DNA from: a virus
Length of the DNA: 29,936 nt
IMG/VR virus record: IMGVR_UViG_3300045996_000806
Location: 1-29,936 of that record
Strand: one strand, 5' to 3'
Shown here one piece after another: positions 295-27,855 of this stretch. Position 1 is the first letter of the stretch, and every line of letters begins with the position of its first letter. Under the pieces are notes generated by a model, which ran no database searches, was not told the DNA's origin, and saw only the letters and a program-made list of their open reading frames with translations. The position numbers were made by a program, and so were the translations under genes.

Positions 295-639
295 ATGAAG
301 CTGGTGAAGGTGAAGACTGCCGACCTGATCGGTGCGCAACTGGACTGGGCTGTTGGCACAGCGGCGGGCTGTGACGGGCTCTGGATGTGGACGGCCGACG
401 ATGGGAGTCGCCACTGCCAACACAATATAGGAGGGCCATTTTCGCCATCGTCTAACTGGCGTGACGGCGGCCCGATTATCGAGCGCGAGCGCATTGACCT
501 CACTTGGCGGCCAAGCGAGGGCTGGGTGGCGTGGGACGCAGACATGCGCTGCCCGAAGAAGGGCCCCACACCCCTCGTCGCCGCCATGCGTGCCTATGTT
601 ACTAGTAAGCTGGGCGATGAAGTGGAAGCGCCCGCCTAA
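295..639 (+). CDS. DUF2591 (NinX-type) phage protein
   Basis: A 114-residue protein starting at ATG after a good ribosome site (GGAGGGGG). The N-terminus (VKTADLIGAQLDWAVG), the central segment (NWRDGGPIIERE) and the C-terminal GPTPLVAAMRAYVTSKLGDE are the conserved blocks I know from the DUF2591/NinX family of lambdoid phages. The biochemical function of that family is unknown. It is the first gene after the presumed attL and is read away from the tRNA. It is followed by three more small plus-strand phage genes. Family call confident, function unknown. Confidence 0.85.
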   Translation: MKLVKVKTADLIGAQLDWAVGTAAGCDGLWMWTADDGSRHCQHNIGGPFSPSSNWRDGGPIIERERIDLTWRPSEGWVAWDADMRCPKKGPTPLVAAMRAYVTSKLGDEVEAPA

Positions 640-666
640 CCCCACCCACGCACAAGAGAGGATGAG

Positions 667-828
667 ATGATGACAGTGACTGATGAGATGCTAGAGGCCG
701 CCATGAAGAAGGCGGTTGAGCTTGAGGTATTCCCGAAGGGGCCTGTTGATGAGGCGACTTACCTCCGCCATTGGGCGTCGATGAAGGCGGTTCTGCAAGC
801 CGCGTTTGAGAAGGCGGAACCCAAATAA
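667..828 (+). CDS. small phage hypothetical protein (53 aa)
   Basis: A short gene reading MMTVTDEMLEAAMKKAVELE and ending at TAA 826-828. The start is one of two adjacent ATGs (667 or 670), preceded by AGAGAGGATGAG. The protein is charged and helical with no membrane segment. Its layout (TDEMLEAAMK, then YLRHWASMKAVLQAAF) resembles the C-terminal part of the protein at 907-1359 (TKEMIEAAIK, then VWRSMIQAI). The two probably share a small domain. Function unknown. It sits 27 bp after the DUF2591 gene, probably in the same operon. Confidence 0.65.
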   Translation: MMTVTDEMLEAAMKKAVELEVFPKGPVDEATYLRHWASMKAVLQAAFEKAEPK

Positions 829-851
829 AAAGCGGCGGCCCGAAGGCCGCC
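826..851 (-). terminator. intrinsic terminator read on the minus strand
   Basis: On the minus strand GGCGGCC-TTCG-GGCCGCC (834-851) forms a 7-bp stem with a UUCG-type tetraloop, followed by GC and a T run with TTTTTA. There is no T run on the plus side. It faces leftward transcripts, so it could end read-through from the late/lysis operon that converges on these genes. Confidence 0.75.
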
Positions 852-906
852 CCTGAAGCGTTACCGGCCGCTCAAGGCTGGTGTGTGTAGTTTGGCAGAG
901 GGAATC

Positions 907-1359
907 ATGGACACAATGCGGAAAGAGTTTGAGGCGTATGTTTGCCGCGATATGACCCGCGAGCAGCGCATAGACCTTATGCCGAGGCATTGCATCGTTG
1001 GTGAGCCATACGTGGACAAGGCGATGCAAGCGAGGTGGGAAGATTGGCAGGCCGCCGCCAAGGCCGAGCGGGAAGCGTGTGCTGCCGTGTGCGAGGATAG
1101 AATGGATGCGCACATGCCGCCGGCGATGTCGCCAGATAAAGCCAGCGCGGCCGTTGAAGCGCTGGGCCTGTGTGCAGACGCCATCCGCAGGCGTGACGAT
1201 GCGTCGGATGGTATGGTACTAGCCCCAATCGAGCCAACCAAGGAAATGATTGAGGCCGCCATCAAGAGTCAGCTTGAATGGAGCCAGCCGGAAGACTACC
1301 CGGTTGCGGAGGTGTGGCGGTCTATGATTCAGGCCATCCGCAGGCGTGGGGAGGGGTGA
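907..1359 (+). CDS. phage hypothetical protein with EACAAVCE motif
   Basis: A 150-residue protein started at ATG 907 (AGAGGG upstream) rather than the earlier in-frame start at 883. It contains WEDWQAAAKAEREACAAVCE followed by an ALGLCADAIRRR segment, a pattern common in accessory proteins of lambdoid and other temperate phages. The C-terminal 45 residues form a second small domain resembling the 53-aa protein at 667-828. No membrane segment, and no enzymatic motif recognised. It belongs to the plus-strand cluster next to attL. Function unknown. Confidence 0.75.
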   Translation: MDTMRKEFEAYVCRDMTREQRIDLMPRHCIVGEPYVDKAMQARWEDWQAAAKAEREACAAVCEDRMDAHMPPAMSPDKASAAVEALGLCADAIRRRDDASDGMVLAPIEPTKEMIEAAIKSQLEWSQPEDYPVAEVWRSMIQAIRRRGEG

Positions 1360-2887: not shown

Positions 2888-3061
2888 TCAATGCACCGTC
2901 TCGTAAGAGTTCGCGATGGCCCACAGCTTGTAGGCCGCATCGTTCTGCGCCTGCTCGTCCTGAGCGGACCGCATGTTCTCGACAAGGCGCGCCATGGCCT
3001 CTTGCTCGTGCCGCTTGGCGAACTCCTGCGCGTCGAATTCGGGCTTCTTGGGCCTAGCCAT
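2888..3061 (-). CDS. small helical phage protein (57 aa)
   Basis: Begins MARPKKPEFDAQEFAKRHEQ and is highly charged and Gln/Glu/Ala-rich, consistent with one long soluble helix. The start overlaps the end of the metallophosphoesterase gene by 8 bases, so it is likely translationally coupled to it. No family recognised. Small charged proteins of this kind are common between tail and lysis genes. Confidence 0.6.
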   Translation of the reverse strand: MARPKKPEFDAQEFAKRHEQEAMARLVENMRSAQDEQAQNDAAYKLWAIANSYETVH

Positions 3062-4112
3062 GCTGCCCCCTGAGAAAACGCAGGTACTCGGCGCCCTGCT
3101 CCACGTCGTGGAAGACGGTCAACATGCGAGGATTGGTGTCGGTGTGGCGGTGATCGATAACCACCATGCAGGCCGGCGCAATCGTGTTGTCGCGGAAGCC
3201 GCCCTCTTTGGCGTACTCATCGATGACCTTGTACGAGGCCACTTGCAGGGCGTGGCAGATGCGGCCGTTGGGGGCCTTCAGGATGTTCTGCCCGGTCGTG
3301 TGTTTGTGGCCGCAGACGGTGATGTGATCGATGTTCCCCATCAGCACGGAGCGTGCTGCGCCGTGGGCCGTGTTCCACATGGAATTGCCGGGGAAGGTGT
3401 GGCGGGCATTGATGAACAGGGTATTGCGCCCCTGCCGTATCCCAATTTTGCCGCCGATGGGGATATACGTTGCCTGCGCTGCCTTGCAGAGATTTGGAAG
3501 CGGATCGTCGTGCCCGCTCCAGAGGTCGTGATTGCCGCCGACATGGAACAGCCACTTGCCCTGCAGCTCCCGGATAAAACCCTCAACCAGGATGTGCGCC
3601 TCAGCGGCCGTGGTGCGCTGGTTGGCATAGAGCCGTTCCAGTCGGCCGACCCAGTTGTTGGACGTGTCGCCGAGATTGACGGCATACAGGCCTTCCGTGT
3701 CACGGATGGTCGATATATGCCGGTCGAGGGTTTCCCAATCGCAGCCATCATCGTCAACGTGAGGGTCGCCCAAGAAGACGATGCCATAAGGGCCATCGAT
3801 GGGCAGTGTCAGCGTGAGCTTAGCGAGGTCGTCTTCGTGGTTCTTCTTGCGCCGAAAGGTGCGCTTCCGGTCCTGCTTGAGGGCGTCATAGCTCAGGTTG
3901 GAACTGCGCACCCGGGAGGCCAGCGGAGCCTGCTGGGCGCGCTCCCTGATGCCCTTGAGCGAGCGCCACAAGTTGCGCTCATTGATGCCCATGACTTCAG
4001 CTGCCTTTGCCACACTCCCGCAATCGATAACGCTCTGCACATATTCGCGCTGCCGGTCAGTACTGCAGAACGGTAGCACCCCCTCCCACATGCCAGACTG
4101 CGTACTTGGCAT
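3054..4112 (-). CDS. calcineurin-like metallophosphoesterase with N-terminal helix-turn-helix
   Basis: A 352-residue protein. Residues about 20-60 look like a helix-turn-helix (CGSVAKAAEVMGINERNLWR). From about residue 108 it has the metallophosphoesterase motifs in order: GDPHVD (115-120), GDTSNNW (148-154), GGNHDLW (192-198), ARHTFPG near 238 and GHKH (268-271). These make a two-metal phosphodiesterase site. Similar HTH-phosphoesterase proteins occur in many phages; substrates are unknown. ATG 4112 has GAGGG upstream. It sits between the holin-type genes and the endolysin. Confidence 0.9.
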   Translation of the reverse strand: MPSTQSGMWEGVLPFCSTDRQREYVQSVIDCGSVAKAAEVMGINERNLWRSLKGIRERAQQAPLASRVRSSNLSYDALKQDRKRTFRRKKNHEDDLAKLTLTLPIDGPYGIVFLGDPHVDDDGCDWETLDRHISTIRDTEGLYAVNLGDTSNNWVGRLERLYANQRTTAAEAHILVEGFIRELQGKWLFHVGGNHDLWSGHDDPLPNLCKAAQATYIPIGGKIGIRQGRNTLFINARHTFPGNSMWNTAHGAARSVLMGNIDHITVCGHKHTTGQNILKAPNGRICHALQVASYKVIDEYAKEGGFRDNTIAPACMVVIDHRHTDTNPRMLTVFHDVEQGAEYLRFLRGQHG

Positions 4113-4133: not shown

Positions 4134-4382
4134 CTACTGATTCTGTTGCGCTTTGCCCGCCACCCACTGACGAGCCACTGCATATCCGCCGACTGTGCCC
4201 ATGTACGTCAGCCACAGCTCCCAGCTATCCGGCATGTGCGCGGCCATCTTCACGGTGAAGACAAGGCCGGCGACGATCATGCCGATGCGCGTATGGGAGA
4301 GCGTGCCGTCCTTGGGGTCGGTGTAGAGTTCCGGCAGGCGACGGGCGAAGTCCTGAGCCTGTTTCCACAAGATGCCGATCAT
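4134..4382 (-). CDS. membrane protein, possible holin partner
   Basis: An 82-residue protein with two hydrophobic segments (IGMIVAGLVFTVKMAA and LWLTYMGTVGGYAVARQWVA) after a soluble N-terminus. ATG 4382 overlaps the stop of the upstream holin-like gene as ATGA, which fixes the start better than the longer ORF. Being coupled to a holin-like gene suggests an antiholin or second holin. No specific family recognised. Confidence 0.65.
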   Translation of the reverse strand: MIGILWKQAQDFARRLPELYTDPKDGTLSHTRIGMIVAGLVFTVKMAAHMPDSWELWLTYMGTVGGYAVARQWVAGKAQQNQ

Positions 4383-4582
4383 TTGTCTTCCTTCCAGCGC
4401 CTGTAGCGGTCGAAGACCCAGCCGCCGATCTGCAGGCACAGCCATATGATCGTCAGGACCTGTAGCCACCGCTCCAGCGGCAAGCCGAACCATATCCATG
4501 TCGATGCAGCAACGGCCGGAGCCGATTTGGTTACGCCTGCAGCTATCTCGGCTGCCGTGCTGTGCTGGTCGTGCATCTTCAT
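4379..4582 (-). CDS. putative phage holin
   Basis: A 67-residue protein with a polar N-terminus, a small-residue and hydrophobic region (AAGVTKSAPAVAASTWIWFG), a second hydrophobic stretch (LQVLTIIWLCLQIGGWVFD) and a strongly charged tail RYRRWKEDK. Two spans, short length, a charged C-terminus and the lysis-region location are typical of holins that release the endolysin through the inner membrane. ATG 4582 or 4576 could be the start; AAGGAAG lies just upstream. Confidence 0.7.
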   Translation of the reverse strand: MKMHDQHSTAAEIAAGVTKSAPAVAASTWIWFGLPLERWLQVLTIIWLCLQIGGWVFDRYRRWKEDK

Positions 4583-6137: not shown

Positions 6138-7691
6138 TTAGCTGGCGAGTTCGCCAAATACGTGGATGAAGAACCCGGTGTTGGGGTTGTAGGTCGCGCC
6201 GCTGGCGTTATCGATACGGACGCGGAATGTCGTCGTGGTCAGCGCAAACGTCTTGCAGGGCGTGGAGGTCGTGGTCGTGTCGTAAACCTGCGCGATAGGC
6301 AGCATCTTGGAGGCGCCATAGGTATCCGACAGCGTGACCTCGAAAATGCCCGTGCCGATTTGCGAAACCGAACTCACGCCCTTGCCATAAGTGATGCTCG
6401 GCGACGCGGGCGTCGTGGTGTCGATGAAGGCAACGGCAGTGGCAATGAGCGCCCGAATTTCCGGGTTCTCCAGCACAAAGCGACTGTTGGTGGAGTCGTA
6501 CCGGAAGCGGTAGTAACGCCCGTTCACCGTGTCGCCGTTGCGGCAGGCAGTCCCATCCGAGCGCACGACAGTCGTGTTACCGTTGCTGTCCACATTCAGA
6601 GTTAGCGCCCCGGTGCTGGTGGCAGTGCGCAGGACAACCACCGTCATCCCGTCGTAAAGACTCACGGCCTCGCGGGTAGTGATGGCAATCGCATTCGCCG
6701 AGCCGGTATCGCGGAAGACGCCAAGACCAACCTCCAACGCCTCTGCCCGCGATTCGGCGTATGAGGGCGGTGAAAACGTCGTGGCCGAGGCGCCGACTTC
6801 AATCTTGATGTCGGTCAGGTAGAAATCCTTCGTGGTGAAGGCGCCGCCCGGCTGCGTCTTGATGACCAGCTCAATGCCGTTGGACACGTCACCCATGGCA
6901 AGGCCGGCATATTCAACGGTCGTGTTGGTGCTGCTCGGAACGTTGGTAGCGTTGGAGCCGACCAGCGTCACGGCAGAGAAGTTGTCGGCTGCATCAGCCT
7001 TGTAGACGGCGATGGTCGTGGAGGCGGTCAGTCCGGACTCCTGCCGGATCTTCGCGGAGATGGAGCAGGTCTTGCTGGCGAAGCGACGCGCCTCGGCCGA
7101 CGCCACCCGGAAGCGCCACTCGACGACCGAGGACGAGTCCCCCGAAACGCCGGCCATCTTGGCCTGACGAGAGGTCGAGCCCAGCCCTGACAGGGTGCCC
7201 GACTGCATGGTGCCAGCCGTCACGGTACCGGCCACACGCCCGTCGATGCCCACGCAGACGTGCGGGAGGAAGGAGGTCGTCAACGTGACCGAATCATCCG
7301 CCGTGATAACTTCCGTCGTCGGGTTGCGGATGGGGTTGGCGTTGGTGACGATGGTCTCAATATTGTCGATCTGGTCCTGCAGCTCCTCGGCCAGAGTGAC
7401 CAATTGCTGCACGTCGGCGAACTGGACGCTGTCCTTCGTCCAGACTGTGACATCGGCCGATGTTTTCAGGACGACCCGATAGGTATCCTCGTAGGAGGCA
7501 AAGATGTTGGGCGTCCGGCCGGCAGCGTCCAGAACGACCGGGTTGGTGTTCGGGGTGGTCAGGCCGGCATCGCTGTAGGTATCCTGCGGCGTGGTCGTGC
7601 CCGACTCGTAGAAATAGAGCTTGCCGCCCGGCAACGGGTTGCCGTTATCATCCAGATATTGCGGAACCGGGTTGCTGTATCTGCCTGCCAT
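6138..7691 (-). CDS. tail fibre / tailspike-type protein
   Basis: 517 residues. The N-terminal ~100 residues (NPVPQYLDDNGNPLPGGKLY, then NTNPVVLDAAGRTPNIF) match the virion-binding module found at the start of many podovirus fibres and spikes, analogous to the P22 tailspike head-binding domain. A short helical neck (QLVTLAEELQDQIDNIETI) follows, then beta-rich domains, and the C-terminus ends in small beta repeats. No clear right-handed helix or lyase motif is visible, so fibre is preferred over enzymatic spike. ATG 7691 has AGAGG upstream and diverges from a plus-strand gene 24 bases away. Confidence 0.82.
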   Translation of the reverse strand: MAGRYSNPVPQYLDDNGNPLPGGKLYFYESGTTTPQDTYSDAGLTTPNTNPVVLDAAGRTPNIFASYEDTYRVVLKTSADVTVWTKDSVQFADVQQLVTLAEELQDQIDNIETIVTNANPIRNPTTEVITADDSVTLTTSFLPHVCVGIDGRVAGTVTAGTMQSGTLSGLGSTSRQAKMAGVSGDSSSVVEWRFRVASAEARRFASKTCSISAKIRQESGLTASTTIAVYKADAADNFSAVTLVGSNATNVPSSTNTTVEYAGLAMGDVSNGIELVIKTQPGGAFTTKDFYLTDIKIEVGASATTFSPPSYAESRAEALEVGLGVFRDTGSANAIAITTREAVSLYDGMTVVVLRTATSTGALTLNVDSNGNTTVVRSDGTACRNGDTVNGRYYRFRYDSTNSRFVLENPEIRALIATAVAFIDTTTPASPSITYGKGVSSVSQIGTGIFEVTLSDTYGASKMLPIAQVYDTTTTSTPCKTFALTTTTFRVRIDNASGATYNPNTGFFIHVFGELAS

Positions 7692-7715
7692 TACTGCTTA
7701 CCTCTTGGAAGCCCC

Positions 7716-7916
7716 ATGAAGGACTATGCCTTTCTGATCGCTGCAGCCCTGGTACCGATAGGGATGCTTCTATACGTCAAGTTCTGGTCGTCTCTTGAGG
7801 AGATGGCCTTTAAGCACCTGCCCAATGGCCGCCTCCGCACGCTGCTCATCACTGATTGGTCAACAGGTAAGACTCCAGAAACGCTGGAAGAGCTACGGGA
7901 GCAGCGCGGCCTATAG
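7716..7916 (+). CDS. small membrane protein, candidate superinfection-exclusion moron
   Basis: 66 residues on the strand opposite to its surroundings. The N-terminus MKDYAFLIAAALVPIGMLLY is one clear membrane helix, followed by a charged soluble tail (FKHLPNGRLRTLLITDWSTG). ATG 7716 has TTGGAAG upstream. The gene lies between the tail fibre gene and the last ejection gene and overlaps the 3' end of the latter by 68 bp in antisense. P22 carries its immI/sieA island at the same place, with small plus-strand-type accessory genes. A lysogeny-expressed exclusion protein is a reasonable guess but unproven. Confidence 0.65.
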   Translation: MKDYAFLIAAALVPIGMLLYVKFWSSLEEMAFKHLPNGRLRTLLITDWSTGKTPETLEELREQRGL

Positions 7917-9714
7917 GCGCCGCCTTCTGCAGGGTCTTGGAGCCCTCCGCCAGATACTTGGCCACCGCCGGGCTATCCATCGCTGCATTCGCCGCACGCC
8001 CCATCGTCATGCCCGACCCATACGCCAGCGCCGTCGTCACCGGATCGACCATGGCAGCGGGCACTGACGCATAGACGGCCCCGCGCTGCGCCGTCCCCGA
8101 GTCCCCGACGCGCCCCTTCAAGAACGTCGCCGCGATGTCGGCCAGCTCGCCAAGATCACCCGTCATGTAGCCGCGCATGTTGGCGAGGCGCGCCGGCGAA
8201 ATATCAGCCTCGGCGCCACGCGGCACGATCTTGCGAAGGTTCATGAGGTTGCTGTACTGCCCCCGCGTCTGGGCGAACGCCGCCGCCTCATCGGGGCCGA
8301 GAGAACGATTTAGGGCCTCCATCAGAGACTTCTTCATCTCCGTTGCGTAGGTGGCGAGCGTCGTGTCGTTCGACTTGCCAAGACGGTCAAGGCCCTTCTT
8401 GATGTTGTAGGCGGCCTGCGCGTCGATCAGGTCACCCTCTTTCACCTTGTTGAGGACGTTATCCAGTTGGCGCTGCATGACGCCGAACTGAGCGTCGGTC
8501 ATCTCGTTGCGGGCGTTGCCGATGATGGTGGAAAGCTCGTTCTGGAAAACATCATCCGCCCGGACGGCTGTGCTCTGCAGCACGCGATCGAACTCAGCGC
8601 CAAGCGCCGTCTCGGCCTGCTTGATGGCAAACGCCGGATTGTCGGAGGCCTGACCAATCGACTTGGCGAGGGCCTGATTAAATTGCTTCTGCAGGTTTTC
8701 TTTCGACTTCCCGGCACCAGAGAGCGGCACATAGTCGAGGGCCGCAGAAAGCGCATTGACGGGCTTGCTGTTGACCAACTGATCAGCGCGGACGGAGATG
8801 CCCCACTTGTCTTTGGCGAGCTGCGCAAGACTCTTTACTTCGGCACTAATGGCGTCTGACGCCCCCTTTCCGGCGCGCTCCAACCCCTTGGCGAGACCAT
8901 GACCCGCCTTGCCAGCAACATATCCGCCGGCGACCTGAATACCCTTCTCCTTCAGGTCGACCGCAGGCTGCACTACTCCGGAGGCAAGGCCAGCGCCGCC
9001 AGCCTGAGCAAAGGTCTTTGGCGCAATCATGGCGTTACCAGCAGCCTCTGCCGCACCGCCAGCTCGTTGCATAACTTGGCCAACTCGCGGGGCCATTTGC
9101 AGCTCAGTCAGCCCCGCGCCTACGCCCTTAGTCGTCTGCCCGGCAGTTCGGAGCGCACCGCCACCTGCGGCAATCATTGCAATGTTGCCGGCCACATTCC
9201 CCGCAATCCCCGCCTTCGTGTCCATCAGGTCGGCGTCACGAGCGCGACTTTCCTTCACGTCACCCATGACGCTATCCACGGTGTCGTTATCCACGAGGCC
9301 GAGCGTGTTCCCGGCAAGTGCGGTGAGCTGACGAATCCCGCGTTTCGTGTCGGTAGCAGCCTTGCCCGCGCCCGCCCAAAAGTTCTCGCCATCCGTGCCG
9401 GCGGCACTCATCTTGCTCTTGTAGGGCTTCAGCCCCAACGAGCCGTCTGGGTTGCGGTTGATGTAGAAGGCCGAACCATCACGCCCCCCCACCACATAAG
9501 CACGCTTGCCGTTCTCTTCCGTGAGCACGCCACGCACAGGGACGACCTGATCGCCCAGCGCGACCTTGGCCTCCCACAGGGCAGGCAACTTGCGGCCGAT
9601 AGCGGCGTCCATCCTCACGCTTTCTTTGGGCGCAGTCGCAGTGCTGCCGGCGAGGATGTCGTCAAACGCCCCGCCGCCGTCGGCCTCGAAGATGTCGTCG
9701 AATGCGCCGCTCAT
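7849..9714 (-). CDS. internal virion / DNA ejection protein (P22 gp16-like position)
   Basis: 621 residues, Ala/Gly-rich and largely helical. It opens with a duplicated acidic motif (GAFDDIFEADGGGAFDDILA) that is frequent in large phage ejection proteins. Glycine-rich potentially membrane-active stretches occur in the middle (AGIAGNVAGNIAMIAAGGGA) and near the C-terminus. Such proteins leave the capsid with the DNA and help it cross the envelope. The ATG overlaps the previous stop (ATGA). It is the third of three consecutive ejection-type genes, as in P22 7-20-16. No lysozyme motif seen. Confidence 0.78.
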   Translation of the reverse strand: MSGAFDDIFEADGGGAFDDILAGSTATAPKESVRMDAAIGRKLPALWEAKVALGDQVVPVRGVLTEENGKRAYVVGGRDGSAFYINRNPDGSLGLKPYKSKMSAAGTDGENFWAGAGKAATDTKRGIRQLTALAGNTLGLVDNDTVDSVMGDVKESRARDADLMDTKAGIAGNVAGNIAMIAAGGGALRTAGQTTKGVGAGLTELQMAPRVGQVMQRAGGAAEAAGNAMIAPKTFAQAGGAGLASGVVQPAVDLKEKGIQVAGGYVAGKAGHGLAKGLERAGKGASDAISAEVKSLAQLAKDKWGISVRADQLVNSKPVNALSAALDYVPLSGAGKSKENLQKQFNQALAKSIGQASDNPAFAIKQAETALGAEFDRVLQSTAVRADDVFQNELSTIIGNARNEMTDAQFGVMQRQLDNVLNKVKEGDLIDAQAAYNIKKGLDRLGKSNDTTLATYATEMKKSLMEALNRSLGPDEAAAFAQTRGQYSNLMNLRKIVPRGAEADISPARLANMRGYMTGDLGELADIAATFLKGRVGDSGTAQRGAVYASVPAAMVDPVTTALAYGSGMTMGRAANAAMDSPAVAKYLAEGSKTLQKAAPIGRAAPVALPAFLESYLLTNQ

Positions 9715-10973
9715 TTAATCAGCCCCATCTGCCGAGCGCGGGCAGTGATAGCGTCAATCTGCTGCTGATTGCCGGCCGCCCGCTTCAGTGCCGCCTCGTA
9801 CTGCCTGTAGAGCACCGGCTTTGCCGTATTGATCGGAGGAGCGGGCCGCGCAGGCTTGGTCGACGCCCCCGGGGCCTCGCGCTTGGTCAGCCTCTGCTGA
9901 TGACGCGCACGAGCCGCTTCCAGCTCAGACTGGAAGATGTCCAACTGCCGCAGGAATTCAGGCTCGCTCTGCGCTGCGTCCAGTGCGGCGGCGGCGGAGC
10001 TAAGCCGACGGCCTTCCTGTTCGGTCAGCGTGCCAAGGCCGCGCATCTTCTCGACTTCCGTTAGGAAGGTTTGGCCAGTGAGTTGCTCCAGCTTGATCTT
10101 GAAGTCATAGGCAGGCGTACCCGGCACAGCAGAGACCAAGGAACTTCCGCCAGTGCCCCATTCGCGCCCTCTGTGGTTTCGCAGCTCGTTGACGATGCTC
10201 AGCGTCTTGTCGATGACGGGGATGCTCTTCCCGGCACCAACATCGGCATTGGCTTCCGCCTCGCTAGTAATACGCGCTCCGGTCTTGGCTCCTTCGACAG
10301 CGGCAGCCTGCGCAGCCTGTGCCTCATCGTTCATTTGCCACTGCTGGTACTGCGTCGGCGTCACTGTGAACTCGCGCACCGGCTCGCCGGTGTAGCCGTT
10401 CACCCAAATCTTTTTGCCGCCCGCGTCGACCTGCTTCAGTTCGCCGGTGAGGTCGCCGTCGATAGGGATAAGCTTCGTGTTGCCCGCGCTGCTCGTGACT
10501 TGGTTATAAACCTTGCCGTCCGAGCCCTTCACGAGCCGGCCGTTGCCGTACCATTTCTCAGAGTTGGCCGAGGCGCGGTTACCCAGCGCGCTCTTGTACT
10601 GGTTGTTCTCCAGCTTCTCCGCGCCATCGAGGTCGCCGATGCTGTACAGGCGATCAATCGCTCCCTGCAGGTTGAACTTCGCCTCCTGTGCGGGAACTTG
10701 CGTCTCCTCGAACAACTGCGGGCGCGCCATGCCACTCGGCATGCCTTCCACGGCCGGCGGCTCCAGTCCGAACAGCGATGCGGTCGGGGCGCCCAGCTCA
10801 GTGCGCGCCTCAGTAGCTGGCGTGTAGCTCTCCTTGAGAATCTGCAGGCGCTGCTGCTCCAGATCCTGCTGGCGGCGCATGGCATTGCGCTTGGCCTGCA
10901 TCTCCTCGAAGCCGTACAGCCGCTCCATGGGGCTGCGAGAATCACCGACGTATTGGCCATTAACGAAGGGCAT
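9711..10973 (-). CDS. internal virion / DNA ejection protein (P22 gp20-like position)
   Basis: 420 residues, charged and helical at the N-terminus (MERLYGFEEMQAKRNAMRRQ). A C-terminal region contains AYDFKIKLEQLTGQTFLTEV, then MRGLGTLTEQEGRRLSSA, a block I know from podovirus injection proteins. It lies between the other two ejection genes with 3-base spacing on one side and an ATGA overlap on the other, which supports a co-produced, co-assembled set. Confidence 0.75.
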   Translation of the reverse strand: MPFVNGQYVGDSRSPMERLYGFEEMQAKRNAMRRQQDLEQQRLQILKESYTPATEARTELGAPTASLFGLEPPAVEGMPSGMARPQLFEETQVPAQEAKFNLQGAIDRLYSIGDLDGAEKLENNQYKSALGNRASANSEKWYGNGRLVKGSDGKVYNQVTSSAGNTKLIPIDGDLTGELKQVDAGGKKIWVNGYTGEPVREFTVTPTQYQQWQMNDEAQAAQAAAVEGAKTGARITSEAEANADVGAGKSIPVIDKTLSIVNELRNHRGREWGTGGSSLVSAVPGTPAYDFKIKLEQLTGQTFLTEVEKMRGLGTLTEQEGRRLSSAAAALDAAQSEPEFLRQLDIFQSELEAARARHQQRLTKREAPGASTKPARPAPPINTAKPVLYRQYEAALKRAAGNQQQIDAITARARQMGLIK

Positions 10974-10976
10974 GGC

Positions 10977-11621
10977 TCACACTCCGAACAGGGATTGAGC
11001 GGCATTCATGGATGAACCAGCACCGCCGGCCATGCCGAAGCCGCCAGCGGGGTTCATGCCGCCCATGGCAGCAGCGGCGCCGCTGTTGAGGATTTCGCCA
11101 ATGGCGTTGGCTTGGCTCATCGTGGCGTTTGCCTGGTTGTTGCCGATGGTCTGGTAGATGCTGCCCAACTGCGCCGCGTTCCCCGCGCCGAGCGAACCGA
11201 GATTGGCCGCCGCGTTCTGACCGGAGCCCGCCACGCCGAACAGGCGCGCCAAGTAATTGTCGAATTCCTGTGAGGCCGTGTTTTGGCCGTAGTTCGTGAG
11301 CGCCTTGCCGGCAGCCCCGGAGAACAGGCCGCCTTTTGCAGCCGCACTGCGCTCAACCGCCTGCTGCCCCTGCTGTTGCCGGAACTGATACCCGGGCGAC
11401 GCCGTGAAAGCGGACATATCCGCCGGCTGTCCGTCCAGCCCGAAAAGTCGGTCGATAATGCTCTGCGCGCCACTCCCGCCCTTGATGAAAGGGTTGAGCA
11501 TGTCCTCCGCTTGCCCGTATCGCTCGCGACTGATGCCCTCGGCCCGCTGCATCGCGGCAAACTGCGCATCTTCTGCATCTTCCGAACCGACAAGGCCCGC
11601 AATGCCGTCAAACAGACTCAT
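10977..11621 (-). CDS. DNA transfer / ejection protein (P22 gp7-like position)
   Basis: 214 residues starting MSLFDGIAGLVGSEDAEDAQ at ATG 11621, which overlaps the upstream TGA (ATGA). It contains the block FTASPGYQFRQQQGQQAVER, followed by GLFSGAAGKALTNYG and SQEFDNYLARLFGVAGSGQN. This block is widespread in small podovirus DNA-transfer proteins. The C-terminus is Gly/Ala/Met-rich and probably flexible or membrane-active. First of the three ejection-type genes. Confidence 0.8.
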   Translation of the reverse strand: MSLFDGIAGLVGSEDAEDAQFAAMQRAEGISRERYGQAEDMLNPFIKGGSGAQSIIDRLFGLDGQPADMSAFTASPGYQFRQQQGQQAVERSAAAKGGLFSGAAGKALTNYGQNTASQEFDNYLARLFGVAGSGQNAAANLGSLGAGNAAQLGSIYQTIGNNQANATMSQANAIGEILNSGAAAAMGGMNPAGGFGMAGGAGSSMNAAQSLFGV

Positions 11622-11836
11622 TTCGCCACCCACCCGGTGTTAGTACCGTTTCCAGATTCCTTGACGTACAGCGTCACGCCTGCGCCGCCGCTCGTGTTGA
11701 TGTAGAGGTCTCCGACATTGCCTTCGCGAGCGCCCTCCGGAGTGCCGGCGCCATAGATCGTGCGTGGCGACAGGCTGATGATGTCCTGCAGCAGTTGAAT
11801 CAACGCTTTCGGCAGGTCGAGCCGGGGGAAAGGCAC
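11618..11836 (-). CDS. short appendage protein at the tail-needle position
   Basis: 72 residues if translation starts at GTG 11836, just after the TAG of the gp10-like gene. The longer upstream frame runs through that gene and is unlikely. The C-terminal half (GAREGNVGDLYINTSGGAGV, then TLYVKESG, then GWVAK) is a small beta module seen at the ends of various phage virion proteins. P22 carries the gp26 tail needle here, but 72 residues is far too short for a normal needle. It could be a knob-only or accessory protein. Confidence 0.65.
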   Translation of the reverse strand: MPFPRLDLPKALIQLLQDIISLSPRTIYGAGTPEGAREGNVGDLYINTSGGAGVTLYVKESGNGTNTGWVAK

Positions 11837-13220: not shown

Positions 13221-13912
13221 GACGGGAAGTTCCGCTTCACGAACCACACGTCAGACGTGCGGCGGCAGGGGATGTCGAACTGCGCCTGCGAGAGCGTCTG
13301 CGACAGGTTCATCGACTTCACGGTGCGCTCAGCCGCTGCGTACTCGTCCTGCAGCTCGACATTCCACAGCCCGACGCCGTACTCCGGCGCGATGCGCTTC
13401 GCCACCGACAACACGATGAAATCGCGGTATTCGGCGGGGTATGTGACCGTTGTTGCGAGCGAGACTTCCGCGAACGGAACCAGCGCAATCAGGCGCAGCG
13501 TGTCGGCTTGGGAGGGAACCGGCCACAACCGCACCTTGGAGCCACGCTCGTAGTTCAGAACAGAAGGCGTGCCGCCCGAGGTTTTGTCGGGAATGCTCTG
13601 GTAGTCCGACTCCGACCAGATTTGCATCTCAAGGTCGGTGTTGTTCTGGCGGATGAACGCCTGCTCAACGCGGGTAATCTCGTAGGCGATATTTCCCGAC
13701 GTGCCCACCGTATACTCAGCATCGCCCGGCGTCAGCACATGGCTGATTTCGGTGTCCTGGTAGATGGCATTCGTCTGCGCGGAAAGGCGCCCGAGAATAG
13801 AGTTAAGGGCGAACAAGGCCGTGGCCGAATCGGACGCGCTGGGCGTCTCGTCTGCGTCAATCACGCGGATTGCGCGCAGGGATGCCTTGATCAGATCCAG
13901 CACCGTCGCCAT
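13217..13912 (-). CDS. P22 gp4-like tail accessory factor (head completion adaptor)
   Basis: 231 residues; P22 gp4 is somewhat shorter. The N-terminus (VLDLIKASLRAIRVIDADET), then ALNSILGRLSAQTNAIYQ, is the family pattern. A beta region (EYTVGTSGNI, then KVRLWPVP) and a helix (YRDFIVLSVAKRIAPEYG) follow. Gp4 binds beneath the portal and bridges it to gp10 and the tailspikes. ATG 13912 has AGGGG upstream. It is separated from the coat gene by a terminator-like hairpin and overlaps the gp10-like gene by 4 bases. Confidence 0.9.
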   Translation of the reverse strand: MATVLDLIKASLRAIRVIDADETPSASDSATALFALNSILGRLSAQTNAIYQDTEISHVLTPGDAEYTVGTSGNIAYEITRVEQAFIRQNNTDLEMQIWSESDYQSIPDKTSGGTPSVLNYERGSKVRLWPVPSQADTLRLIALVPFAEVSLATTVTYPAEYRDFIVLSVAKRIAPEYGVGLWNVELQDEYAAAERTVKSMNLSQTLSQAQFDIPCRRTSDVWFVKRNFPS

Positions 13913-23762: not shown

Positions 23763-24418
23763 GCGACGTCCCCCGGCTTGTGCATCAGGCGCACGACGTT
23801 GTTGCCCAGCACTTCGGACGCATCGCACGACAAGCGCTTGGGCTCGATTCGGCCGCCCAGCAGAACGGCCTTTGCCTTCTCCGGATTGCCGATCAGCTTC
23901 GGCTGCGGTGCCGGCAGGTTGCGGCGGTTGCAGTCGGCTTCGATCAAGCCCACCAGCACGCGGGGGAATTCCTGCACGCCACCCTGCAGAACGTAGCCCT
24001 GATAGCGCTTCTCGAATTCCTTGCCGAGGAAAGTGAACTTGTGCTCATCCGGGCAGCCACACACTTCCAGCCAGCCGCCCATGTCTTCGATGACGGCGTG
24101 CGTTATCGGGTCATCAAAGACCACGGACGGGTAATTGCCGATGCTGCGAACGGCGCGCTCCACCTGCGTCCATGCCTTCAGCGCACGGGTGGACTTGCTG
24201 CCCTCGATGTGGCGCACGAAGTCGGCAGGCTTCGGCATGAACGAACCAGCATCCGGGTCCAGCGCGTGCAGATTGGCAGCGCGGCTCAGGTCGGCCAGCT
24301 CGTAGGCTCGCAGGGCGTTGAAGTAGATTTCCAGTAGCTCAGGGCTGGCCTTCTTGTTGTACAGCTCGAAAAGCCCGGTCATCAGGGCATAGAAATTCCC
24401 GCGCTCGTGCTCAAGCAT
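23759..24418 (-). CDS. DUF6475 protein, putative replication accessory / helicase loader
   Basis: 219 residues. FYALMTGLFELYNKKASPEL, then EIYFNALRAYELADLSRAAN and MPKPADFVRHIEGSKSTRAL, followed by FDDPITHAVIEDMGGW and KEFEKRYQGYV, is the DUF6475 pattern I know from phages of beta- and gammaproteobacteria. The N-terminal part resembles domains of phage helicase-loader (P-like) proteins, and the gene follows the O-like initiator with an 8-base overlap, the place of lambda P. No Walker motif. Confidence 0.75.
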   Translation of the reverse strand: MLEHERGNFYALMTGLFELYNKKASPELLEIYFNALRAYELADLSRAANLHALDPDAGSFMPKPADFVRHIEGSKSTRALKAWTQVERAVRSIGNYPSVVFDDPITHAVIEDMGGWLEVCGCPDEHKFTFLGKEFEKRYQGYVLQGGVQEFPRVLVGLIEADCNRRNLPAPQPKLIGNPEKAKAVLLGGRIEPKRLSCDASEVLGNNVVRLMHKPGDVA

Positions 24419-25187
24419 CGCGCTCTCCTGCCAGTCGCTGGCGTTCTTCGTGACGGCGCAGGGCCTCAGCCATGACCGCCTTGTTGTGATCCAGGTTTGT
24501 TGCGTTGCCAGCCCTCGGGCTGTCGTTCAACCACTTGGCTTTAAAGCCCTGCCACCCACTCTCGGCCGCCAGCGTGACGGCAGCAGCCAATGTCATGCCG
24601 GCCTTAGCGGCCTCGCGCTGGATGCCATCAAGTGCGGTTTGAGTTAGCGGGGCTTTTTTGGCTTTCCGGGTTGTCAGGAAGTCCTTTGCAGCCTGCTCAG
24701 GCACGCCAACAGCAACGAGGTCGCGAACACCAAGCGCCGCAGGCGTGTCTTGTTGTTCCCTTGTCTTTGTATTTGTTGTTAGTTGTTTATTGGGTGCACG
24801 AGGTGCAGGGGTGGGGTGCACGAGGTGCAGGGGTGGGGGTGCATCCTGTGCAGGGGGGGGCTGCATATCGTGCAGGGGTGCATCCTGTGCAGGGGTGCAC
24901 GGCGTGCAGGGGTTGGCTTGGCTTAGGGGTGCACCATGTGCAGAGGTAAGGGTGTATTTGGTGCTGGTCCCGGCGCGCACTTCTGCACTCAGGTACCCCA
25001 TGTTGGCGAGGTCATGCAGTGTCTTGCGGACAGCTCTTTCAGACAGGCAGGTGTGTTCGCAAACAGTGGAGACTGAGCCCCAATACTCGCCGTCATCACT
25101 CGCGTACCAGGCGACAGCCATCAGCACCGCCTTTTGGGTCGGTGACATTTGGAGCGCCTTACAGGCTTTGATGAGGTCGAGACTCAA
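24411..25187 (-). CDS. lambda O-like replication initiator
   Basis: 258 residues from TTG 25187 (AGGGG eight bases upstream). The first ~75 residues form a winged helix-turn-helix (SPTQKAVLMAVAWYASDDGE, then VCEHTCLSERAVRKTLHDLA). A Pro/Ala/His-rich linker of about 60 residues follows (PPPAQDAPPPLHLVHPTP), encoded by the iteron DNA, then a C-terminal domain (SGWQGFKAKWLNDSP) expected to contact the helicase loader. Like lambda O it would bind iterons within its own gene and recruit the next gene product. Confidence 0.85.
   Translation of the reverse strand: MSLDLIKACKALQMSPTQKAVLMAVAWYASDDGEYWGSVSTVCEHTCLSERAVRKTLHDLANMGYLSAEVRAGTSTKYTLTSAHGAPLSQANPCTPCTPAQDAPLHDMQPPPAQDAPPPLHLVHPTPAPRAPNKQLTTNTKTREQQDTPAALGVRDLVAVGVPEQAAKDFLTTRKAKKAPLTQTALDGIQREAAKAGMTLAAAVTLAAESGWQGFKAKWLNDSPRAGNATNLDHNKAVMAEALRRHEERQRLAGERDA
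24760..24942 (-). other. replication origin: seven iterons plus AT-rich region inside the O-like gene
   Basis: Seven 13-bp copies of TGCAY-N3-GTGCA occur at 24795, 24817, 24840, 24862, 24879, 24896 and 24930 (first base). Steps are 22, 23, 22, 17, 17 and 34 bp. Each is an inverted repeat, usually followed by GGGG. Immediately beyond, in gene direction, 24760-24794 is T/A-rich (TTGTCTTTGTATTTGTTG), a probable unwinding element. Position and layout match lambda-type origins. Confidence 0.88.
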
Positions 25188-26955: not shown

Positions 26956-27037
26956 AAACCACAGGTTTAATTGATGATGCAACCGCAAGTTTATTCCCGT
27001 TCGTCGGCGGTGGCCGGACAATTGCTACCTATGGTTG
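26956..27037. promoter_or_regulatory. right operator cluster between cro and cI
   Basis: AAACC-ACA-GGTTT (26956-26968) is a perfect 5+3+5 inverted repeat. CAACC-GCA-AGTTT (26980-26992) is a weaker copy 24 bp away. A third, CTACC-TAT-GGTTG (27025-27037), overlaps the cI start codon and matches 12 of 15 bases of a site near 28979. I could not assign -35/-10 boxes for the two promoters here with confidence. Confidence 0.75.
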
Positions 27038-27855
27038 AAGACACGAAAGCAGCTCGGCTGCATGAAGCAATCAAGAGCGCCGGCCACTCGTGGTCGAGCG
27101 CGGCATTGGCTATTGGCAAGTCAGCTCAGGCGCCGACGAAGTGGAAGAAGGGGCAGATCGGGAATGACACAGTTGAGGCGCTGGCCAAGCTAACGGGCTG
27201 GAACTACGTCTATCTGTTGACGGGGGTCGGCCAGAAAAAGCCGGTCGATCCGACGAAAGACATAGAAACCATTGATCCAAGTCAAGAAAGCGGGAGTGGT
27301 GGCGATTCTGTACAACTACCCATCGAACAACGTTCGGGAAACAGTGAGGTACCAACAACAAACCCGGCGCTTGTGCCTATCTCCGTATGGGATGACAACA
27401 CGCCGCTCGGGGCAGATGAAGTCGAGCTAAAGTTCTTGAAGACATGGATTTCGCGGTCAGGCAGCGGGTATGCCGAAGACACCATTTACGACGAGGGCAA
27501 GCGCCTGCGCATGGGGAAAATCACCCTGCAAAAGGCTGGCGTGAATGCCGAGACCTCAGTGGTAGGCCTGAACAAAGGGGACAGCAACGAGCCCGTAATC
27601 CCCGATGGCGGCGCGGTCTATGTGGACCGCTCAAAGCGCCAGATCATCGATGGCGAGGTCTACGCCATCTACCACGAGGGCGAATTCAGGGTGAAGCTGC
27701 TCTACAGGCTTCCGGGCGGCGGCTTGCGCATCCGGAGCTACAACAGGGCCGAATACCCCGACGAGGACTACCCTGCCGGCTGGGAAGAGAAGATCCGGAT
27801 TGAGGGCTGGGTGTGGAACTGGAGCCCGCCCATTAGGAAGTGGAGGGGAAAATAG
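27031..27855 (+). CDS. cI: CI-like phage repressor (HTH plus S24 peptidase fold)
   Basis: 274 residues from ATG 27031. N-terminal HTH (HEAIKSAGHSWSSAALAIGK, then SAQAPTKWKKG), a hinge with many Ser/Gln/Pro, then an S24 LexA-like domain with the serine in KGDSNEPVIPDGG (Ser185) and lysine in FRVKLLYR (Lys222). The usual Met of GDSMEP is Asn. No Ala-Gly cleavage pair is present about 35-40 residues before Ser185; an Ala-Gly at 169-170 is only 15 residues away. Lysogeny repressor, divergent from cro. The start codon overlaps an operator-like site. Confidence 0.9.
   Translation: MVEDTKAARLHEAIKSAGHSWSSAALAIGKSAQAPTKWKKGQIGNDTVEALAKLTGWNYVYLLTGVGQKKPVDPTKDIETIDPSQESGSGGDSVQLPIEQRSGNSEVPTTNPALVPISVWDDNTPLGADEVELKFLKTWISRSGSGYAEDTIYDEGKRLRMGKITLQKAGVNAETSVVGLNKGDSNEPVIPDGGAVYVDRSKRQIIDGEVYAIYHEGEFRVKLLYRLPGGGLRIRSYNRAEYPDEDYPAGWEEKIRIEGWVWNWSPPIRKWRGK

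Follow-up and report, generated by a model that had tools for sequence, protein, structure and literature searches.

A conserved antisense membrane-protein gene at the ejection-gene junction of P22-like phages is a candidate for superinfection exclusion

The genes that PHROG identifies between positions 1689 and 25187 of the viral DNA analysed here (29,936 nucleotides, the whole of which is called the window) lie on the minus strand. Among the late genes, a short open reading frame runs the other way (7716..7916, plus strand), which raises the question of whether the frame is a gene and, if so, what its product does at that place. It starts with an ATG at 7716 and encodes 66 residues (MKDYAFLIAAALVPIGMLLYVKFWSSLEEMAFKHLPNGRLRTLLITDWSTGKTPETLEELREQRGL), with one predicted membrane helix followed by a family motif, here LPNGRLRTLL. 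The 3′ end overlaps, for 68 nt (7849..7916), that of the last ejection gene (7849..9714, minus strand), which stands at the position of P22 gp16 and matches phrog_26400, a DNA ejection protein (E=4.8e-29). Behind it are a second ejection gene (9711..10973, minus strand; phrog_2534, “released from the phage upon host infection”, as P22 gp20; E=4.4e-19) and a third (10977..11633, minus strand; phrog_598, “DNA ejection”, as P22 gp7; E=1.5e-35). On the other side, a gap of 24 nt between divergent starts (7692..7715) separates the frame from the next gene of the late operon (6138..7691, minus strand), whose N-terminal part matches phrog_26190 (no function assigned) and which is called fibre-type by its position. 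An earlier note on this DNA had described an opposite-strand gene of 66 residues with a 68-nt overlap, and its ATG, stop codon, length and overlap are all confirmed.

The late genes of the window also match phrog_156 (portal), phrog_283 (major head protein) and phrog_578 (head closure Hc3). Because HK620 and P22 records use the head-closure, DNA-ejection and “released” labels for their gp10, gp7 and gp20, the virion genes appear to be P22-like, and the description of this phage in the earlier note as unrelated to P22 is doubtful. A CI-like repressor (26971-27855, plus strand) and an O-like replication gene (24411-25187) are recognised by PHROG matches, and no PF00589 integrase was found in the 29.9-kb record. 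Elsewhere in the window, a short protein (4134-4499, minus strand) resembles phrog_1322, a membrane protein classed as a moron (E=2.3e-11). The late-region gene at 3054-4112 (minus strand) resembles the phrog_7339 DNA repair exonuclease family (E=3.1e-52), and its product carries an N-terminal LysR-type helix-turn-helix match below the Pfam cut-off.

The length of the small frame proves nothing about its status, since the frame is open from 7260 and forms a 218-residue antisense shadow. That openness well beyond the gene is what a chance frame shadowing late genes would look like, so gene status has to come from homologues. The 66-residue protein as sole query found no relatives in viral contigs, had a best match of E=0.2 among phages, and found only itself in its own record. 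For this reason, relatives were collected through the ejection protein, a route that does not select for presence of the small gene; one set of ejection-protein relatives used comprised 80 of 158 confirmed. A profile of 14 small proteins (alignment A4) was compared with the 14,349 six-frame stop-to-stop segments of 91 loci, re-fetched copies excluded. At E<=0.015, 68 of the 91 loci have a family match, every one antisense at the 3′ end of the ejection gene, and the best match off the junction has E=0.94. Thirteen of the matched loci are profile seeds or flagged with seeds and 55 are not; two (L011 and L047) are one record, so the 68 loci represent 67 records. The remaining 23 comprise 17 loci that lack the gene (with only 29 nt of sequence past the ejection gene in L078 and only 320 nt in L061), two with another two-span antisense frame, and four that end before the ejection gene does. 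The two-span frames, in L052 and L053, are more diverged and lie beyond the reach of the 14-protein profile.

The window copy itself can be recovered in the same way. With a model built without it and without the copy in L002, it ranks first among the six-frame segments of the window (E=2.3e-4; second, 0.19), and in a single blastp comparison it shares 35% identity with the L002 copy over 46 residues (E=9e-7). In the search with a larger model, the best off-site match, in L020, has E=0.028. The window protein thus has the profile match, the junction position, and the predicted membrane helix with a cationic P-x-G-[KR] motif that mark the family. Comparison of the locus among relatives, which the earlier note had named as a check, finds the frame conserved. 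The frame 7716-7916 is a real gene, and profile similarity places its product in a widespread, previously overlooked protein family; homologues, position specificity, selection and promoter statistics refute the reading as a chance frame.

Existing resources do not recognise the family. Pfam and PHROG searches with the 14 members gave nothing convincing (best E of 0.029 and 0.035), and PADLOC had no match to three family members and two of the micro-ORFs described below. NCBIfam returned EccE for one member (0.0021) and MgtR for another (0.089), which were judged to be chance similarities of membrane segments, as was chance assumed for one weak match in a sample of 398 genomes (a 39-residue frame, E=6.4e-4). 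Among the papers listed by literature searches, which leave most subscription journals outside, no title or abstract describes such proteins.

Family members are 43-97 residues long, and a typical one has a short N-terminus, a hydrophobic helix, and then a motif like M-P-[DE]-G-[KR]-[LI]-K-R-[LI]-L. Clustering at 60% identity reduced the 68 loci to 37 groups, one member of each being used for promoter and terminator counts. In 30 of the 37 representatives, [KR]-P occurs inside the first 22 residues, where the window copy has V-P. The start codon lies 108-135 nt past the ejection stop in 31 of the 37 and 139-230 nt past it in the others, while the overlap with the ejection gene ranges from -16 to 162 nt. 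For the window protein, AlphaFold2 predicts a long helix (2-34), a short one (39-45) and a third (57-63), with a mean pLDDT of 79.9 and a pTM of 0.45; the single-span protein of the earlier note agrees with the one long helix, whose membrane location is predicted. By the positive-inside rule, the C-terminal motif of the family would be cytoplasmic. A variant with an extra hydrophobic C-terminal stretch occurs in L051 and L056 (5620 onward, minus strand).

The family also extends to named phages. Xanthomonas phage PBR31, described as presumably temperate, carries the gene without annotation (E=9.5e-11 with a model excluding PBR31); of 14 named phage or prophage loci not used in the larger model, it alone matches. 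In tblastn, PBR31's own copy recovers PBR31. Another member finds Rhodoferax phage P26218 under two accessions (E=0.02), as well as two Manatee Spring records that have the same length (E=3); these weak matches were accepted because of their place at the junction. P26218 and the circular metagenome record MW202557 both have the gene on a strand without annotation there, and in MW202557 the annotation instead holds a 135-nt frame on the opposite strand. P26218 is described as lytic. An integrase match occurs in 18 of 49 records, many of them fragments: 16 of 44 carriers, with the L052 variant included, and two of five records lacking the gene. Since the family occurs without detectable integrase, including in a phage described as lytic, expression restricted to lysogens is not general.

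Beyond the overlap, the small protein evolves under purifying selection. In eight clusters the dN/dS there is 0.20, 0.18, 0.06, 0.10, 0.27, 0.35, 0.14 and 0.15, and a ninth is saturated; pairs with fewer than four differences were dropped, which removes two of the 11 multi-member clusters, and the estimates are noisy for genes so short and come from clusters that are not fully independent. These values bear on whether the antisense transcript acts in place of the protein, by pairing with the late mRNA of the ejection gene and lowering its stability. The transcript would indeed be antisense to the ejection 3′ end, as the earlier note had pointed out from the overlap. However, the selection acts at the protein level outside the shared stretch, the family is recognisable as a protein across 37 clusters, and the overlap shrinks to 7 nt and is absent in one cluster. 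An RNA role is therefore not favoured, though an added one would be compatible with the selection.

In relatives, the gene carries signals of its own. Ten of 37 clusters (L002, L005, L011, L029, L057, L066, L097, L098, L101 and L102) have a TANNNT hexamer that stops exactly 6 nt short of the start codon, at a background of 0.0088 per position (25/2,849; binomial P ~8e-13); at any other listed distance, only one or two groups have it. At the usual spacing, a -10-like box at -6 would make transcription begin at the A of the AUG, so its fixed distance in the homologues suggests a leaderless mRNA. At six of the 37 junctions, a strict intrinsic terminator of the late strand stands 12-19 nt upstream of the start of the small gene, where the remaining sequence of the loci predicts 0.006 per junction. 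Both patterns were first spotted by eye in the same loci, which makes the tests after the fact. The terminators (L003, L046, L075, L091, L095 and L101) lie inside the late operon, between the ejection and fibre-type genes. The window copy lacks both the -10-like box at -6 and the late-strand terminator of its relatives, and no consensus promoter was found at 7400-8100. Its own ribosome site, claimed in the earlier note, is present as GGAAG (7707-7711, within the 24-nt gap), with 4 nt separating it from the ATG; it is the sole ribosome signal and a weak one.

The gene also behaves as an inserted cassette, because the flanking genes abut where it is lacking: in nine of 12 displayed loci among the 17 without it, the ejection stop and the start of the next late gene are -3 to +14 nt apart. 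In the other three (L061, L067 and L077), the filter used finds no next gene that near. These observations weigh on a role in virion assembly, in which the small protein would help or restrain the phage's own ejection protein, for example by keeping it from membranes before packaging. The pairing with the ejection gene is conserved whether or not a record has an integrase match, as such a helper would lead one to expect. Nevertheless, the opposite strand and the promoter signals of relatives mean that the protein is probably not made together with the late proteins, and 17 of 91 loci do without the gene; the assembly role is judged improbable.

The slot occupied by the gene has a known tenant in P22. 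There, sieA (13336-13830, minus strand) is convergent with gene 16 and ends 22 nt after it (13313). The HS1 prophage is similar: a frame with the published motif, taken as its SieA, has its end 21 nt past the gp16 gene. The window gene has the same location, convergent and between the homologues of gp16 and gp9, the downstream gene being fibre-type by position; the P22 immI/sieA position proposed in the earlier note thus holds in both slot and orientation. According to a published study, SieA blocks DNA injection through gp16 and gp20, and escape from it comes from changes in the C-terminal regions of these two proteins (PMC10883804).

Likeness to SieA (phrog_7745 in P22) consists of being a membrane protein, encoded in convergent orientation between the last ejection gene and the tailspike gene. 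SieA, at 162 or 164 residues, is predicted to span the membrane three times, whereas the window protein has 66 residues and one predicted helix; three or more spans are not predicted for it by AlphaFold2, which gives the single long helix. Moreover, the SieA gene ends 22 nt beyond gene 16, while the window gene overlaps the ejection gene. Homology, suspected from the C-terminal ends, was rejected on an hhalign probability of 0.1% between the family and the SieA proteins of P22 and HS1, and phrog_7745 is absent from the PHROG matches of the window at E<=0.1. Other occupants of the slot include a lipoprotein-like gene in Proteus phage Brookers and hkcB of HK620, likewise a minus-strand gene directly after gene 16 (33313-33642), but one that encodes a 109-residue protein listed as hypothetical. 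In phages of another type, T4 Imm is a membrane protein said to block DNA entry. The same is said of Sie of Tuc2009 and HK97 gp15, also membrane proteins of other phage types, in PMC10883804.

The window gene probably encodes a minimal superinfection-exclusion protein, one that would strike the entry conduit of same-kind phages by way of their ejection proteins. The link to exclusion is drawn by analogy with two published systems of the same slot (PMC10883804, PMC7067206), of which the second is taken up below. The small gene would have its own transcription, separate from that of the late genes, as the promoter signals of homologues suggest. A cell carrying the phage would make the small protein in its inner membrane, where the single helix and the positively charged tail may interfere with the DNA-entry conduit formed by incoming ejection proteins. 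The likeliest target is the C-terminal portion of the gp16-type protein, at or close to the inner membrane; contact with the helix could stop the conduit from forming or opening, and same-kind phages would be excluded. Since the putative blocker is antisense to the tail of its proposed target and shares DNA with it, recombination and inheritance would carry both together. The hot spot for exclusion morons put forward in the earlier note fares well in part, with the slot, the conservation, the look of an independent unit in relatives and two published excluding systems in its favour. Against the exclusion reading weigh the want of a recognisable promoter at the window copy, the lack of detectable homology to SieA, the presence of the family in a phage described as lytic, and the single match among the 14 named loci.

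A short, hydrophobic protein with a cationic tail could also act in host takeover or lysis timing, as an antiholin-like protein or membrane toxin that happens to use a convenient slot, and the presence of the gene in P26218, described as lytic, would fit this. However, the endolysin and Rz-type genes of the window sit elsewhere, and such a role leaves the fixed link to the ejection gene unexplained; it is considered unlikely.

Relatives with a gp16 of the Sf6 or BTP1 type offer a second view of the junction. They have a conserved antisense membrane micro-ORF of 23-25 residues whose end lies 8 or 11 nt within gene 16 (Sf6, MQRDLLNIAFYIVGFCTFLVFAKLF; BTP1, MERDLLNFVFLIFGLVVGKLLFA). The BTP1 copy has 23 residues (L120, 2512-2583, minus strand), and other copies are in L023, L024, L116-L119 and L121-L128. 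The micro-ORF is intact in 15 of 15 copies examined, from ten phages and five E. coli prophages, picked because their DNA resembles the Sf6 or g341c junction; an in-frame upstream ATG would extend two copies to 27 and 29 residues. Copies of the Sf6 type have a pN/pS of 0.33 and those of the BTP1 type one of 0.25, and DNA similar to the Sf6 copy occurs in 311 of 5,426 E. coli genomes. The sequences upstream are of several unlike types, that of BTP1 having a promoter sequence (TATAAT) and a Shine-Dalgarno sequence (GGAGG). In some enteric phages and prophages (590-970, minus strand, in L117 and L119; from 355, minus strand, in L124 and L127), a further antisense gene stops just short of the micro-ORF, which suggests a single accessory operon on that strand. 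PHROG gave no match for three micro-ORFs, and the sequence is absent from P22, HK620, HS1, APSE-1 and Brookers; APSE-1 and Brookers have other hydrophobic frames near the spot (27 and 40 residues), which may be chance. The micro-ORFs share with the window family place, orientation and topology only.

In BTP1, this junction is crossed by STnc6030, an antisense transcript that excludes BTP1 superinfection (Owen et al. 2020, PMC7067206). When cloned on its own, it protected fully against BTP1 but not against P22; it was seen in a Northern at about 500 nt, not 786, and was classed as non-coding, no ORF over 60 residues being reported (PMC7067206). A 2025 review still treats it as an antisense RNA (PMC12197685). 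Five escape phages carried four different SNPs, all non-synonymous and confined to 36 bp of the ejection gene's 3′ end, reported in D23580 chromosome coordinates (PMC7067206). From coordinates, we infer that the STnc6030 interval must contain the 23-codon frame, and the “antisense RNA” may be the mRNA of the BTP1 micro-ORF. The likeness to the window gene is in the shared junction and the antisense orientation, and the exclusion by STnc6030 comes with escape changes in the ejection protein (PMC7067206); the difference is a micro-ORF of 23 residues, for which no homology to the window protein is claimed.

Pairing of the transcript with late mRNA was proposed by Owen et al. for BTP1; they noted that the P22 DNA differs at this place, which fits the lack of effect on P22, and read the clustering of the escape SNPs at the 3′ end of the transcript as an RNA seed region (PMC7067206). 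The transcript length in their Northern also counts against the microprotein reading. Against this, overexpression of STnc6030 did not reduce BTP1 release from the lysogen, and single amino-acid-changing SNPs escaped (PMC7067206). Normal release is hard to explain by an RNA that destroys late mRNA, as the authors agree, and so is escape through a single mismatch in a long duplex. A protein that blocks entry via the ejection protein would explain exclusion, normal release and escape changes together. For the window gene, action of the transcript in place of the protein is judged unlikely, and a blocking protein stays the preferred reading. There is about an even chance that many P22-like phages carry a tiny one-helix self-blocker at this place, with SieA as the large occupant and STnc6030 as the mRNA of a 23-residue microprotein.

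The analysis adds an unannotated protein family, here of 37 sequence clusters, and gives a published antisense-RNA exclusion system a testable re-reading. If that re-reading is true, the 23-residue microprotein of BTP1 would be a very small exclusion protein. Proteins this short make the passage of DNA through the inner membrane amenable to study in P22-like phages. If the proposed function is true, what has been a feature of P22 would become a pattern for where many podophages keep a self-exclusion gene.
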